This document shows positions 17,298-25,917 of a stretch of 36,485 nt of DNA, in pieces. The notes under the pieces are model-generated. The model was not told the DNA's origin, searched no databases, and was given only the letters and a program-made list of their open reading frames with translations. This DNA is from Bacteroidota bacterium (GTDB taxonomy: Bacteria; Bacteroidota; Bacteroidia; AKYH767-A; JABDAW01), in assembly GCA_013288905.1 (NCBI GenBank), contig JABDAW010000006.1, forward strand, positions 4,623 through 41,107. Direction: 5' to 3'. The position numbers were made by a program, and so were the translations under genes. Each line of letters starts with the position of its first letter. Position 1 is the first letter of the stretch.

Positions 17298-17418
17298 AAC
17301 TTTACTAAAGCTTTCAACATTAGTAATGTCAGATGCCGAACTCCTTGCCATTAAAGCCTTCCATCCACATCTCTTTCCTGAAGTTCCTGGTATGGAAATT
17401 CTTTTTCTAAGTATAAGA
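17298..17418. repeat. Leader of array 3: degenerate hairpin H' plus about 90-bp conserved leader
   Basis: A degenerate hairpin (17298-17330) is followed by 89 bp starting 'cagatgccgaactcc' and ending 'attctttttctaag' plus 'tataaga'. The 89 bp differ from the array 4 leader (22895-22983) at only five positions and closely match the array 5 leader (25311-25398). The last 21 bp of the leader are already in phase with the array. Confidence 0.85.
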
Positions 17419-18041
17419 GTGGAAATTCTAAGGTTATATGCACTGTATCTAAGGTTAGTTACAGTGTATCTAAGGTTAGTTACAGTGTATCTAAGGTTAG
17501 ATACGCTGTATCTAAGGTTAGATACGCTGTATCTAAGGTTAGATACGCTGTATCTAAGGTTAGATACGCTGTATCTAAGGTTAGATACGCTGTAACTAAG
17601 GTTAGATACACTGTAACTAAGGTTAGATACAGTGTAACTAAGGTTAGATACAGTGTAACTAAGGTTAGATACGCTGTAACTAAGGTTAGATACAGTGTAA
17701 CTAAGGTTAGATACAGTGTAACTAAGGCTACATACGGAATTTGTAAGCAAGCATACAGAAGATGTAAGCACACATACAGAAGATGTAAGCACACATACAG
17801 AAGATGTAAGCACACATACAGAAGATGTAAGCACACATACAGAAGATGTAAGCAAGCATACTGAAGATGTAAGCACACATACAGAAGATGTAAGCACGCA
17901 TACAGAAGATGTAAGCACGCATACGGAAGATATAAGCACACATATTGATAATGTATGCTTACATTATCAAATCTTATGCTTAGACCTTTCATTCTTAACC
18001 TTGGATCCACTATCTCTAACCTTCTTTTTCCTGAACATAAG
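17398..18041. repeat. Tandem array 3: about 30 units of 21 bp with a graded change of unit sequence
   Basis: Starting in the leader at 17398, units follow every 21 bp to about 18041. Units 17440-17730 have the core 'ctaaggttagatac', with the near-perfect dyad 'ttagatac-gct-gtatctaa'. From about 17730 the unit becomes 'catacagaagatgtaagc' with no shift of phase. After 17943 decayed units ('cttacattatcaaatc', 'cttagacctttc', 'cttggatccac', 'cttctttttcc') still start every 21 bp. Track ORFs 17238..17939, 17480..18010, 17728..17943 and 17287..17595 are all translations of this array. Confidence 0.93.
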
Positions 18042-18182
18042 GTTGCGATTTCAACTATTAAACATAGAAATTCTTGTCTTTACATTAGATAAGAAATTTC
18101 AAGAGATGGTTCTTCAATAAAGATAAGTTTTTAAATCGCCCTGTTTATTGGGAATTCTGGAAAGAACCTTATTTTGAATTTA

Positions 18183-18338
18183 ATGACTGTCGGGTTGTAT
18201 AAACCAAATTTTATCTTGTCATTCCGACGAAGGAGGAATCCTATCCATATTTCTATAGGATTCCTCCTTCGTCGGAATGACAAGTTTACACAGTTTTTAT
18301 ACTGTAATTATATTGTTGGTATAAATAACCCGACAGTC
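18183..18338. mobile_element. MITE-like palindromic element, copy B, with direct repeats
   Basis: The terminal inverted repeats 'gactgtcgggtt' and 'aacccgacagtc' bound the element. Its core is a perfect 30-bp inverted repeat (18215-18244 with 18255-18284) around a 10-nt loop. The 12-bp direct repeat 'attttgaattta' flanks it at 18171-18182 and 18339-18350, as expected of a target-site duplication. No coding capacity. Copy A at 16847 is homologous over its right two thirds. It ends 33 bp from the stop codon of the YfhO gene, so both copies sit just past gene ends. Confidence 0.78.
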
Positions 18339-18371
18339 ATTTTGAATTTATATAAGGTATAATATGTTTCC

Positions 18372-21219: not shown

Positions 21220-21290
21220 ATGAGTTATGAAGTAGGAGTTATGAATCTGTTGACAACTCATAACTCATACTTAATAACTCATTACTCTTT
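21220..21290. repeat. 7-bp-phased palindrome at the 3' end of the YVTN gene
   Basis: The left arm reads in 7-bp steps as atgagtt, atgaagt, aggagtt, atgaatc; the right arm as aactcat, aactcat, acttaat, aactcat. The arms pair with about three mismatches around a loop near 'ctgttgac'. The right arm runs to the stop codon of the minus-strand gene at 21282, so it can fold in the 3' untranslated RNA and may serve as a terminator or stabiliser. Confidence 0.8.
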
Positions 21291-22523
21291 TACAAACTTC
21301 CCTCGCTCGCTACTATTATTGCTTCTTATCTCATAAAAATAAATTCCGCTATTCCAATTGTCAATTGATAATTGACAATTGACATTGGATAAGATTCCTT
21401 TATAGACTTCATTCCCCAGAAGGTCAGTTATTGTCAATTGTGCATTATCAATTGTCCATTGAGACTTGATGTTTAGAATAGTAGTAGTGGGATTGGGATA
21501 GAGGGTGATGCTTGGGGCGGAAGGAGGTATGGAGGGGATTCCTGTAGTCATATCATACACGGAAATAAAATTCCCAAATGCAACTGGTTCATTTCCGACA
21601 TTAATAGTATCCGTCACAGTATTTGTAAGAGAGTCAATGACACTTACTGTATTATCATATTCATTTGCAACATAAATCTTATCTCCATTAGGGCTTATAG
21701 ATATACCTTGTGGGTATCCACCTACTGGAATAGTAGCTGAAACACTATTTGTATTAGTATTTATTATGCTTACTGTATTATCATCAGCATTTGTAACATA
21801 TACATTATTCCCATTAGGGCTTACTGCTACTCCAAAAGGTACATTGCCAACTGGAATTGAATCCAAAACAGTATTAGTTGCAGTATTTATTACATAAACT
21901 TTATTGCTAAAACCATCATTAGCAACATATAACTTACTTCCATCAGGACTAACAGCTACGCCAAAAGGATTATCGTAAGGAAAATGACCAACATGAATTA
22001 TTGACAAAACAGTATCAGCCATTGTGTTAATAGTGCTAACTGTAGCATCAGAACTATTCACAACATAAACTTTACTTCCATCTGGGCTGACAGCCATACC
22101 CATAGGATAATTACCAACCGGAATTGTTGCTGAAACCATATTGGTAGTTGTATTAATTACACTTACTGTATTAGAACCCTGATTCGAAACATATACTTTA
22201 GTTCCATTTGGAATTACAACAAGTGTCCAAGGTCTATTACCTACATTAACAGGAGCAGAAACAGCATTAGTAGCAGTGTTTAAAACACTTATGGAATGAG
22301 AATCTAAATTCGAAATAAATACTTTACTTCCATCTTGACTCACAGATACCCCAAAAGCTCCATAGACAACTGGAATTGTAGCAGTTACCGTATGTGTTGT
22401 TACATTAATAACAGATACTGTACCAGCACCAGCATTCGTGATATACGCAGTCTGCCCCTCCCCCTTCCCTCCAATGAAACCCGCCACCACAAGCATCATT
22501 AATTTTATAACATTATTCTTCAT
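21282..22523 (-). CDS. YVTN-family beta-propeller protein with T9SS type A sorting domain
   Basis: A 413-aa exported protein. An N-terminal hydrophobic segment ('VIKLMMLVVAGFIGG') acts as signal. Residues about 25-320 are seven YVTN/NHL-like propeller repeats of about 42 aa with the core 'VAVSPNGNNVYVTNADDNTV' and 'IPVG'. Residues about 335-413 are a T9SS type A sorting domain ('ITLYPNPTTTILNI ... GNEVYKG ... GIYFYEIR'). The DNA for that domain contains palindromic 7-bp-phased repeats (caattga/taattga; tcaattg/tgcatta), seen in the protein as 'QWTIDNAQLTI' and 'NVNCQLSIDN', so a repeat has spread in frame into the coding sequence. Promoter-like TAACTTTG lies upstream (22570). Ligand unknown. 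Confidence 0.85.
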   Translation of the reverse strand: MKNNVIKLMMLVVAGFIGGKGEGQTAYITNAGAGTVSVINVTTHTVTATIPVVYGAFGVSVSQDGSKVFISNLDSHSISVLNTATNAVSAPVNVGNRPWTLVVIPNGTKVYVSNQGSNTVSVINTTTNMVSATIPVGNYPMGMAVSPDGSKVYVVNSSDATVSTINTMADTVLSIIHVGHFPYDNPFGVAVSPDGSKLYVANDGFSNKVYVINTATNTVLDSIPVGNVPFGVAVSPNGNNVYVTNADDNTVSIINTNTNSVSATIPVGGYPQGISISPNGDKIYVANEYDNTVSVIDSLTNTVTDTINVGNEPVAFGNFISVYDMTTGIPSIPPSAPSITLYPNPTTTILNIKSQWTIDNAQLTITDLLGNEVYKGILSNVNCQLSIDNWNSGIYFYEIRSNNSSERGKFVKE

Positions 22524-22577: not shown

Positions 22578-22621
22578 CATTAAATAGTTTGGAATAGGAA
22601 AAGTTTCCACGAATCCTTTCA

Positions 22622-22706
22622 GGTGCGAAGCTCCTGGAAGGTTTAATTCTTATAAATCAAGAGAAATGTATGCATCCTGACTGGAGCTTCGCACCAGTCA
22701 GGATGC
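22622..22706. repeat. Alternative hairpins with ggtgcgaagctcc arms
   Basis: 'gcatcctgactgg' (22672-22684) pairs perfectly with 'ccagtcaggatgc' (22694-22706) around a 9-nt loop. The loop side also carries 'ggagcttcgcacc' (22683-22695), which is the exact complement of 'ggtgcgaagctcc' at 22622-22634. The two pairings overlap and compete. Confidence 0.75.
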
Positions 22707-22750
22707 CTGTTCCAAAAACTTAGTCAATGGTTGAAATTGTTTAGCCTATA

Positions 22751-22881
22751 TTTTTTTAACCTTAGTAGAAAGTAATGTTAAGTGAGACATAAAAACCTTA
22801 TTACCTTATTTAACTTTATATAATATGGCAATAAGGTTTTAAAATCTAAACTTGTTTCCTATTCTACTAAGGTTAAAAAAA
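22751..22881. repeat. Palindrome P1: short copy of the aaccttagta/accttatt element
   Basis: The outer arms are a perfect 20-bp inverted repeat containing 'aaccttagtagaa' (22751-22770 with 22862-22881). The inner arms 'aaaaccttatt' (22792-22802 with 22830-22840) are perfect over 11 bp. The same two arm pairs in the same order occur at 23487-23799, where further palindromes sit in the centre. It ends only about 13 bp before the array 4 leader. Confidence 0.82.
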
Positions 22882-22894
22882 ACAGCAGGAACAT

Positions 22895-23418
22895 CAGATG
22901 CCGAACTCCTTGCCATTAAAGCATTCCAGCAACATCTCTTTCCTGAAGTTCTTGGTATGGAAATTCTTTTTCCAAGTATAAGAGTGAAATATCCAGGCGT
23001 AAGACCTCAACTCTTATGCATAAGACCCCAACTCTTATGCATAAGACCTCAACTCTTATGCATAAGACCCCGACTCTTATGCATAAGACCTCAACTCTTA
23101 TGCATAAGACCTCAACTCTTATGCATAAGACCCCAACTCTTATGCATAAGACCTCAACTCTTATGCATAAGACCCCGACTCTTATGCATAAGACCCCGAC
23201 TCTTATGCATAAGACCTCAACTCTTATACTTAGATATTTCACTCTTATGCCTAAGAGTTGAAGTCTTATACTTAGATATTTTATTCTTATGTATAGTTCC
23301 TCGACTCTTAACCTTGGTTTTTTAAGAAAGAACCTTGGAAATAGTATTTACAGATATAGTTCTTTAGCTTTTATGTATAGCTTCTATAGAAGCATACTTT
23401 CTTCCATTAATACCTTGC
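22895..23418. repeat. Tandem array 4 element: leader, 17 units of 21 bp, trailer
   Basis: The leader (22895-22983) is nearly identical to that of array 3. Units follow every 21 bp from 22963 to 23319. Ten near-identical units (23005-23214) have the core 'actcttatgcataaga' with the perfect 12-bp palindrome CTTATGCATAAG; variation is mainly cctc/cccc and aact/gact. Five diverged units follow in phase ('atttcactcttatgcctaag', 'gttgaagtcttatactt', and so on). The trailer from 23309 ('taaccttggttttttaag') to about 23418 is clearly related to the array 5 trailer at 25808-25917. Confidence 0.93.
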
Positions 23419-23443
23419 AAGGAACCCTTGATTTGAATAATAG

Positions 23444-23814
23444 ACCTCTTCGGAAAATAGTAAAGTAAGTATAAAATTTCCTTTTTAACCTTAGTATAAA
23501 ACCTGGCATTGGCTGTAATCCAAACCTTATTCCCTTATTCAATAGGCTTTACTGGGAATTTTGTGGGTAAATGATTATAGCGGGATATTAACCAAAATTT
23601 AAAGGGATAAAATTTAACCACAGAGTACACAGATTAACACAGATTTTGGTCGCCAAGAATCTGTGTTAATCTGTGTACTCTGTGGTTAAATTTTATCCTA
23701 TTGAATCAATGTAAATTAAGCTTCCCACAAAATTCCCAGTAGAACCATTCAATAAGGTAATAAGGTCATCATTGACTCTAATTATTTTCTACTAAGGTTA
23801 TTTTCCGAAGAGGT
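23444..23814. repeat. 371-bp nested palindrome (P2), five arm pairs deep
   Basis: From outside in: 'acctcttcggaaaata' (23444-23459 with 23799-23814, perfect 16 bp); 'aaccttagta' (23487-23496 with 23790-23799); 'accttattcccttattcaat' (23524-23543 with 23747-23766, 18 of 20); 'actgggaattttgtggg' (23551-23567 with 23724-23740, perfect 17 bp); and a perfect 41-bp core stem beginning 'ggataaaatttaacc' (23605-23645 with 23658-23698). The core contains 'accacagagtacacag', a motif I recognise as a common interspersed repeat in environmental bacteria. No coding capacity. Confidence 0.9.
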
Positions 23815-23858
23815 ATAATCTTTCCTACAATCTGATTAGTGAAGGAGCTGCTTTTAAA

Positions 23859-25223
23859 TTATTTTTCGCGGGTAAATCGTACAAAAACACCTTCTTGTTT
23901 CAGAAGAAATGAAGCAGCATCCGTCTCAAAAAGAAGTTCAATTCCATAATCAAAATTCTTAAAATCATCTTTTGCAATCGCTTCCATCGGAATAGGAATT
24001 TGTCCTGTCGCCTGATTGATTAAAGTAGAATCATGCTTACTGATAGTGATGTGCATCTCTAATCCTTTATTATAATAGATTCCCAAATACTTATTTAATT
24101 CTTCGGGACTGACATTTATGGTTTTATGATTAGAAATAGTATAAGGTTTATTGTAACAAATCTTCAGGACAGTACTCATCACTTCGCTGATAGCTGTCAC
24201 GGTGCCATTAGTACATAAAGCAACGGTAAAATGATCCTCAGGAAAGTATTCCAAAGTAGAAACAAAGCCGTCTATTTGCCCGGTATGACCATACCCAAGC
24301 TTGTTGTAGAAAAGGAAAGTAAACATTCCCATTCCATAATCATCCTTCATTGTTTTCATAAGTTCAAGACTGTTTTTATTAACCAACTTACAGGCAAATA
24401 GAGCATCAATAAATTTATTTAAATCGCTCGGAGTAGCGACTACAGACCCGCTCCCGACAAAGACACTACCGTCGGACTCCTTCATTTTAGCGGCATGATT
24501 CCCGGTAAAGAAATAAGAATAAGACTCCTTGTTCTTCACATCAATTTTAGTGGTGGAATAGGTATTTTCTAATCCAAGCCTGGCAGTTATTCTATCCCGA
24601 AGCGCATCCTTGTAAGACTGATGACAAATCTTTTCAATAATATAAGCCAGCAGATTATAATTTGTGTTGCTATAAGCAAACTTCTCATCCGGCGCAAATT
24701 CGGGAGGCTTGCTTGCAATAAGAGAAAGCATTTCTTCTTGTGTTTTCGGCTGATCCATCCAATCATAAAATGCAGTATCTTCGGTGAAATCAAAAAGCCC
24801 GCTCCTGTGTTGAAGAAGATGAGTGATGGTAATTTTATCAGCATTGGGAAGGCGAGGAAAAAACTTCTTTAGCGTATCCGTAAGACTTAATTTCCCCTCC
24901 TCGACAAGCTCCAAAATCATGGTCGCAGTAAACAGTTTGGAGATAGAACCTATTTTATATTTGGTATCAATGGTGGAATGGATTTTCTCTTCCTTGGAAA
25001 TTAAGGAATAGCCCGTGCTGCAGGTATAAATAATCGTATCATTCTTAGAAACAGCAATGCTGTACATCCCTTTATGATTGCTCATGATGGCGGTAAACAA
25101 ACTATCCAATCTTTCTTTATTAATACTTTGGGCACTACATATATTAATGCTAATACCAGCCAAAAAGAAGGCTGCGAAAACGGTATAAACAATCAACCCA
25201 TTTCTAAAATTAAGGAAACTCAT
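23859..25223 (-). CDS. Beta-lactamase-family serine hydrolase (S12/class C fold), exported
   Basis: A 454-aa exported enzyme. The first 32 residues form a signal peptide ('VYTVFAAFFLAGISINICSAQ'). Catalytic motifs of the class C beta-lactamase/DD-peptidase superfamily are present: SxxK as S93-I-S-K96, YSN at 184-186, and HTG at 313-315 in 'GYGHTGQIDGF'. A C-terminal region of about 90 residues resembles the lipocalin-like extension often found in this family. It may hydrolyse a D-amino-acid peptide or an ester; motifs alone do not show beta-lactam resistance. The track ORF begins at 25709, but its first 160 residues are translated array 5 and leader ('MHSSSETMHSSLET'); the ATG at 25223 gives a proper signal peptide and has a TAGTTTTG box just upstream. 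Confidence 0.88.
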   Translation of the reverse strand: MSFLNFRNGLIVYTVFAAFFLAGISINICSAQSINKERLDSLFTAIMSNHKGMYSIAVSKNDTIIYTCSTGYSLISKEEKIHSTIDTKYKIGSISKLFTATMILELVEEGKLSLTDTLKKFFPRLPNADKITITHLLQHRSGLFDFTEDTAFYDWMDQPKTQEEMLSLIASKPPEFAPDEKFAYSNTNYNLLAYIIEKICHQSYKDALRDRITARLGLENTYSTTKIDVKNKESYSYFFTGNHAAKMKESDGSVFVGSGSVVATPSDLNKFIDALFACKLVNKNSLELMKTMKDDYGMGMFTFLFYNKLGYGHTGQIDGFVSTLEYFPEDHFTVALCTNGTVTAISEVMSTVLKICYNKPYTISNHKTINVSPEELNKYLGIYYNKGLEMHITISKHDSTLINQATGQIPIPMEAIAKDDFKNFDYGIELLFETDAASFLLKQEGVFVRFTREK

Positions 25224-25241
25224 ATTAGTTATTTGTTTTTG

Positions 25242-25249
25242 CAAAACTA
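25242..25249 (-). promoter_or_regulatory. Predicted -7 box TAGTTTTG for the serine hydrolase
   Basis: A perfect TAnnTTTG match on the minus strand, about 19 bp before the ATG at 25223. It supports the short start and means array 5 lies upstream of, not inside, the transcript. Confidence 0.45.
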
Positions 25250-25277
25250 AAATTTCAAAAGGAAAGGAAGGGTGAAG

Positions 25278-25310
25278 AACTTTACTAAAGTTTCTGACTT
25301 TAGTAAAGTT
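25278..25310. repeat. Perfect hairpin H at the head of array 5
   Basis: 'aactttactaaagt' (25278-25291) pairs perfectly with 'actttagtaaagtt' (25297-25310) around the loop TTCTG. The same hairpin, degenerate, heads array 3 (17298-17330) and appears alone at 17067-17098. Confidence 0.85.
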
Positions 25311-25917
25311 GAAAGCCGAACTCCCAGCCATTAAAGCCTTCCATCCACATCTCTTTCCTGAAGTTCCTGGTATGGAAATTCTTTTTCCAGGTATAAAAGG
25401 GAAAAATCTAAGGTTAGTTTCCAAGGAACAGTGCATTGTTTCAAAGGAACAGTGCATTGTTTCCAAGGAACTGTGCATTGTTTCCAAGGAACAGTGCATT
25501 GTTTCTAAGGAACTGTGCATTGTTTCCAAGGAACAGTGCATTGTTTCCAAGGAACTATGCATTGTTTCCAAGGAACAGTGCATTGTTTCCAAGGAACAGT
25601 GGATGGTTTCTAAGGAACTATGCATTGTTTCCAAGGAACAGTGCATTGTTTCTAAGGAACAATGCATGGTTTCTAAGGAACTATGCATGGTTTCCGAGGA
25701 ACTATGCATTGTTTCCGAGAAACTGTGTATAGTTTCAAAGGAACTATGCTTAGATGCTAAGGAACTGTGCCTGGTTTCCGAGGAACTATGCTTAGATACT
25801 GTGCATCTAACCTTAGTTTTTTAAGAAAGAATCTTGGAAATAGTACTTATAGATATAGTTCATTTCCTTTTATGTTTAGGTTCTATAGAAGGATGCTTTC
25901 TTCTATTAATTCGTTGC
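25311..25917. repeat. Tandem array 5 element: leader, 21 units of 21 bp, trailer
   Basis: The leader (25311-25398) matches those of arrays 3 and 4. Units start every 21 bp from 25378 to 25818. The main unit has the core 'aaggaacagtgcattg' plus 'tttcc', an imperfect dyad (ggaaca...tgtttcc). Near the right end units change to 'aaggaactatgcttagat' types without losing phase. The array is bounded by the inverted pair CTAAGGTTAG (25407 region) and CTAACCTTAG (25807 region). The trailer (25808 to about 25917) is homologous to the array 4 trailer. Confidence 0.93.

Follow-up and report, generated by a model that had tools for sequence, protein, structure and literature searches.

Insertion sequences (IS) of the ISL3 family have 25-bp ends and produce AT-rich 8-bp target duplications (PMC5559704), and short non-coding derivatives that retain the ends of a parental IS are known, such as MITECca01, an IS982-family MITE of Cardinium (PMC9769881). 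Mobile DNA is also found inside repeated extragenic palindromes: IS1397, IS621 and ISPsy8 lie in REP or BIME palindromes (PMC1525189). Here we describe a locus in which related components are stacked. Its inner element, B, resembles ISL3-family IS in its inverted ends of about 25 bp and its AT-rich 8-bp duplications, and IS-derived MITEs in being short and non-coding with parental IS ends; it differs from both in its core, a perfect 41-bp stem that is unrelated to the IS end seen and that is replaced in one copy by another core, A. As with IS1397, IS621 and ISPsy8, mobile DNA sits within a repeated extragenic palindrome; however, guest and host palindrome are both MITEs here, the host carrying a target duplication of its own, and B showed no preference for palindromes. 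Core A resembles REP sequences that are associated with RAYT (Y1) genes in consisting of paired inverted intergenic half-units that occur in either orientation. In contrast to that system, repeats A, D and D′ do not regularly flank the Y1 genes of the two genomes that carry core A (G000 and G027), and RAYT-driven REP was rejected on this basis; no A repeat lies beside a Y1 gene in either genome, the nearest being one copy around 1.2 kb away in G027 only.

The host genome (G000), from a lake, is a 2.64-Mb Bacteroidota-type draft in 209 contigs. The stretch analysed, which we refer to as the window, is 36,485 nucleotides of contig C6; copies elsewhere in the genome are named after their contigs. 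Two palindromes, P1 and P2, share a 1.3-kb intergenic gap with a 21-bp tandem array, between two minus-strand genes (Table 1). All of the arms that an initial annotation described in P1 and P2 are present at the positions given there, and the arm pair that it placed in P2 at the site equivalent to the centre of P1 is perfect, as claimed, but 18 rather than 17 bp long. Two direct repeats had been overlooked: the 8-bp sequence ATTCAATA exactly flanks B, and AAT flanks the whole of P2. With these, the 375 bp of P2 resolve into 165 bp (element C with core A), 202 bp (element B) and an 8-bp target duplication (TSD). From the outside in, the order is AAT, the C end AGACCTCTTCGGAAAATAG, an A half-unit, ATTCAATA, the B end GGCTTTACTGGGAATTTTGTGGG, and stem D with its 12-nt loop; the second half mirrors the first, running from the D stem through the B end, ATTCAATA, an A half-unit and the C end to AAT. 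Both palindromes fold far better than their shuffled sequences (P2, z = −17.6, equalled by none of 100 dinucleotide shuffles; P1, z = −6.0, equalled by none of 200).

Table 1 Features of the P1/P2 gap (window coordinates)
Feature	Position	Strand
Flanking gene, left	21282-22523	-
P1: core A without insertion, surrounded by remnants of a different shell, E	22758-22874	
P1 perfect 20-bp arms (plus an inner AAAACCTTATT pair)	22751-22770/22862-22881	
3-bp target duplication AAT, left	23439-23441	
P2, whole: element C with core A (165 bp minus B and one TSD), split by B	23442-23816	
Element C left terminal inverted repeat, AGACCTCTTCGGAAAATAG	23442-23460	+
P2 outer arms, perfect, 16 bp	23444-23459/23799-23814	
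P2 arm pair TAACCTTAGTA	23486-23496/23790-23800	
Core A left half: box AACCTTAGTATAAA, 22-nt spacer, box AACCTTATTCCCTTATT	23487-23539	+
P2 arm ACCTTATT	23524-23531	
8-bp target duplication ATTCAATA of B, left	23537-23544	
Element B, 202-bp ISL3-type MITE, inverted ends GGYTYTACTGGGAATTTTGTGGG	23545-23746	+
P2 inner arm pair, perfect, 18 bp	23550-23567/23724-23741	
Core D: perfect 41-bp stem, 12-nt loop (23646-23657) inverted relative to C52, C193 and C11	23605-23698	
P2 innermost stem, arms of 41 bp	23605-23645/23658-23698	
8-bp target duplication ATTCAATA of B, right	23747-23754	
Core A right half, AATAAGGTAATAAGGTC ... TTTCTACTAAGGTT	23751-23799	-
Element C right terminal inverted repeat, two mismatches	23798-23816	-
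3-bp target duplication AAT, right	23817-23819	
Flanking gene, right	23859-25709	-

Other repeats are present in the window. Three tandem arrays of 21-bp period (one of them double) have different units (17316-17944, 22890-23256 and 25315-25791), and each is preceded by a common conserved leader of about 95-109 bp; P1 abuts one leader, and more leader copies occur on C38, C28 and C1. A nested palindrome at 18182-18341 has ends AATGACTGTCGGGTTGTATAAACC, core GTCATTCCGACGAAGGAGG and an apparent 8-bp duplication, TTGAATTT; the AATGACTGTCGGGTTGTATAAACC-type shell bears core D′ at locus L116. The P1/P2 gap contains a further palindrome, an inverted repeat at 22608-22709 with arms around CAGGTGCGAAGCTCC and GGAGCTTCGCACC.

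Searching the host genome recovered nine complete copies of B, eight of exactly 202 bp and one of 243 bp in which core A replaces D. Perfect, AT-rich 8-bp TSDs border eight of the nine (seven of the 202-bp copies and the 243-bp copy): ATTCAATA at P2, and AATTCTTT, AAGATTAA, AACTTTAA, TCTATATA, TTTCTTTT, ATAAAATT and ATTTTATT elsewhere. The copy on C52 is without one. The end sequence of B has 24 matches in the genome and its reversed control has none. On C164, an ISL3 transposase fragment (PF01610, DDE_Tnp_ISL3) clears the curated cut-off of 23 bits both in the genome search (36.6 bits) and with hmmscan (37.4 bits), and the C-terminal end of its open frame is closed by a B terminus in which the last 25 bp of B are identical. 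The same arrangement is found on lake MAG contigs (L090-L096), where the B terminus follows coding sequence closely similar to the C terminus of the C164 frame, although the short translated stretch from these contigs falls under the Pfam cut-off when taken alone; the MAGs with this IS end are named AlinenLipids, and one is labelled uncultured Bacteroidetes. B thus combines terminal inverted repeats common to an ISL3 end, AT-rich 8-bp TSDs and uniform, short non-coding copies. Because its end is linked to ISL3 in this genome and in lake MAGs, and its TSDs are ISL3-like, B is best read as an ISL3-type MITE. We infer that an ISL3 transposase, intact now or formerly, probably moved B in trans; the 59%-complete draft yielded no intact ISL3 IS. 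Also on C164 (L076, 3060-3304), a ribosomal protein L16-like gene begins and then passes into the C terminus of the ISL3 transposase, through insertion of an IS or through chimeric assembly.

Beyond cellular genomes, viral contigs contained neither the B end nor the A half-unit as an exact match, and phage records did not match P2; among plasmids, only the D core matches (79%), in plasmids of Bacteroides and Haliscomenobacter. A known RNA family was rejected, as Rfam matches are all far under the gathering scores and are mostly to microRNA hairpin models.

Element C measures 165 bp end to end in five of nine copies, as it does in P2 once B is removed, and seven of the nine are flanked by perfect 3-bp TSDs, in every case AAT or ATT. 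With core A, element C therefore has the terminal inverted repeats and constant-length duplications of a MITE in its own right. It carries core A at P2, C75, C103 and C104; elsewhere it carries a different palindrome, D′. C elements with unrelated cores nonetheless have the same exact length of 165 bp (L038, L082, L084 and L117, compared with L033 and P2 minus B).

When B and one copy of ATTCAATA are removed from P2, the A layer is 103 bp long, the same as at C75; it is 112-129 bp in the other unfilled copies. The restored element shares 82% identity with C104 (136 bp compared) and 78% with C75 (127 bp compared), and the range for C104, C75 and C103 together is 71-82% over 127-137 bp. These three are the proper empty relatives of P2. 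The initial annotation proposed that one palindromic element had inserted into the loop of another, and this is borne out for B (202 bp) within C with core A (165 bp) by the isolated B copies, the unfilled copies of C with A and the normal length of the A layer after removal of B. Its contrast of filled and empty copies holds for this one boundary and not for the other layers. Looking for each layer in isolation recovered B alone and C with A unfilled, but D was inseparable from B in the 202-bp copies. P2 consequently records two events rather than serial insertion of all four layers, because every intact 202-bp copy of B includes the 41-bp stem D, and because the MITE that bears core A ends in the outer 16-bp arms.

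The layers of P2 are concentric and nearly symmetric, as would be expected if they formed one complex unit in which all four always moved together. However, B is found by itself at seven or more other intact sites, mostly with its own TSD; C with A is unfilled at C75, C103 and C104; and A is found in other shells, as well as inside B at C85. These isolated layers with TSDs rule out a single composite unit, to which we assign almost no probability. Replication by fold-back (template switching), in which half an element is duplicated inversely to form P2 at once, could account for the long perfect arms, the symmetry and the homogenized arms of the D stem. It provides no source for an 8-bp direct repeat that exactly borders a 202-bp unit with identical end points elsewhere, and the left and right halves of P2 have A spacers that do not match; we regard this origin as extremely improbable. 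Assembly is a further consideration in a draft of 209 contigs, several of which end in or beside copies of B or A (C13, C16, C103 and C104), and P2 could have been joined artificially through the repeated B. Such a misjoin would not produce complementary A halves with a matching 8-bp repeat and an exact total of 165 bp, making an artefact very unlikely.

We are therefore highly confident that P2 consists of two MITEs, one nested in the other: C with core A came first (3-bp TSD), and the ISL3-type B later entered its apex (8-bp TSD). As a first step, the 165-bp MITE with ends AGACYTCTTCGGAAAATAG and hairpin core A would have entered the intergenic gap, generating the 3-bp duplication; the 202-bp MITE, with ISL3-type ends and a hairpin with a 41-bp stem, would then have entered the AT-rich apex of the first, generating the 8-bp duplication. 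B at P2 differs from the C52 copy at 1 position in 202 bp once the loop is re-inverted, and the host element is only 71-82% identical to its relatives; judged from these divergences, B is recent and the C-with-A element older. The perfect outer arms had been taken as a possible sign of recent insertion, a suggestion that does not survive, as the outer layer is old and has diverged from its relatives. An orthologous empty site was unusable: the nearest orthologue of the neighbouring β-lactamase-like gene is 51% identical and has a different downstream neighbour.

P1 had been put forward as the empty-site comparison for P2. It consists of core A within remnants of shell E, with arms like GGTCATGGGTTAAACC, and its similarity to P2 is mainly limited to the A boxes; with its different shell, P1 is a cousin of P2 rather than its empty form. 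Shell E has 8-bp duplications of its own at C114 and C168 (GATTTGTT and CTTTATTT, read off the sequence).

Two more A cores have been filled independently at the apex, at C66 by a C element (165 bp, TSD AAT) and at C138 by another element of about 202 bp (TSD TTATTTTA; the boundary was set by eye, one base off the scripted cut), and serial insertion is supported as a general process by these two cases. Both loci have four nested layers: E, A, C and D′ from the outside in at C66 (L038), and E, A, an element with GTGARTTCGRGATT ends and a CTCCTACGGAGTTTT palindrome at C138 (L039). At C85 the order is reversed, with B around A.

All three foreign insertions in A cores are at the apex, and IS are known to enter REP palindromes, ISPsy8 at the symmetry axis of the hairpin (PMC1525189). 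This raises the question of whether hairpin loops, the tips of cruciforms, are an active target of these elements, much as REP sequences are of some IS. However, 42% of the AT-rich 8-mers in A fall in the apex, which gives a chance of about 0.07 for three of three. Moreover, only two of nine B sites fall within palindromes, a share near the 10-13% of control sites (AT-rich intergenic positions within the window) that score equally high, and across the nine sites B has no excess in palindromes over AT-rich intergenic sites. A plain preference for AT-rich sequence in palindrome-rich gaps is enough to explain apex insertion, and active targeting seems unlikely.

The initial annotation also raised conversion between arms, which is supported for the 41-bp stem by paired changes and a loop inversion. 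Among B subfamilies, variation affects five interior stem pairs, with both arms changed every time and no G-T in 40 cells; two pairs at the stem base are mismatched in some copies. The P2 loop reads TTGGTCGCCAAG, and its closest copies (C52, C193 and C11) have the exact reverse complement, CTTGGCGACCAA; the stem flanks keep their orientation despite the inverted loop. These observations fit pairing or recombination between arms, although the counts of arm changes rest on few independent events: paired changes shared across a subfamily could reflect a small number of events passed on to several copies, and replacement of whole cores could also have produced the subfamily differences. The stem arms of B may have been held identical through pairing-based repair or recombination of a hairpin or cruciform, which would also have inverted the P2 loop.

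The A half-unit comprises a box AACCTTAGTANAAA, a spacer of 18-23 nt and a box AACCTTATTACCTTATT. It is present in G000 and in G027, a genome from another family; a strict pattern search found it in none of 40 other genomes of the order, including two of the same genus. In G027, core A occurs in other shells, one of them inside-out; inside-out half-units are found at L133, L135, L137, L143, L150 and L153, several inside shells that end in AGACYTCTTTCATAATT. The spacers are unrelated to one another (0.4-0.5 bits per position, compared with 1.7-1.9 in the boxes, a contrast that is inflated because the boxes were the search criterion). Core A is thus kept in two bacterial families and at least five shells, with unrelated spacers and boxes in inverted pairs. 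Shells and cores are thus freely combined: shell B is seen with D and with A, shell C with A and with D′, and shell E with A. Tentatively, A, D and D′ might be modules swapped among unrelated MITE shells; the conservation of the A boxes across shells points to a possible role of the boxes in protein binding or transposition, together with capture of cores. Integron attC sites, which are defined by the form RYYYAAC/GTTRRRY, were considered and rejected for core A, the ends of which are without this form. At two loci (L122 and L126, on C50 and C57), D′ half-palindromes (GGAACGCWGATGACGC...) are arranged head to tail with half of D (ACCACAGATTTCACAGATT) rather than inverted.

Nested MITEs, one of them of ISL3 type, are an ordinary kind of system. 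Stacked non-autonomous transposons can explain multi-layered intergenic palindromes, and their footprints make the layers datable. Of more interest than the nesting are the loop inversion and the conserved pair of A boxes. The paired changes and the inverted loop provide natural evidence for arm-to-arm repair or recombination in hairpins of around 40 bp, and the A box pair could be a handle on the spread of hairpin cores.
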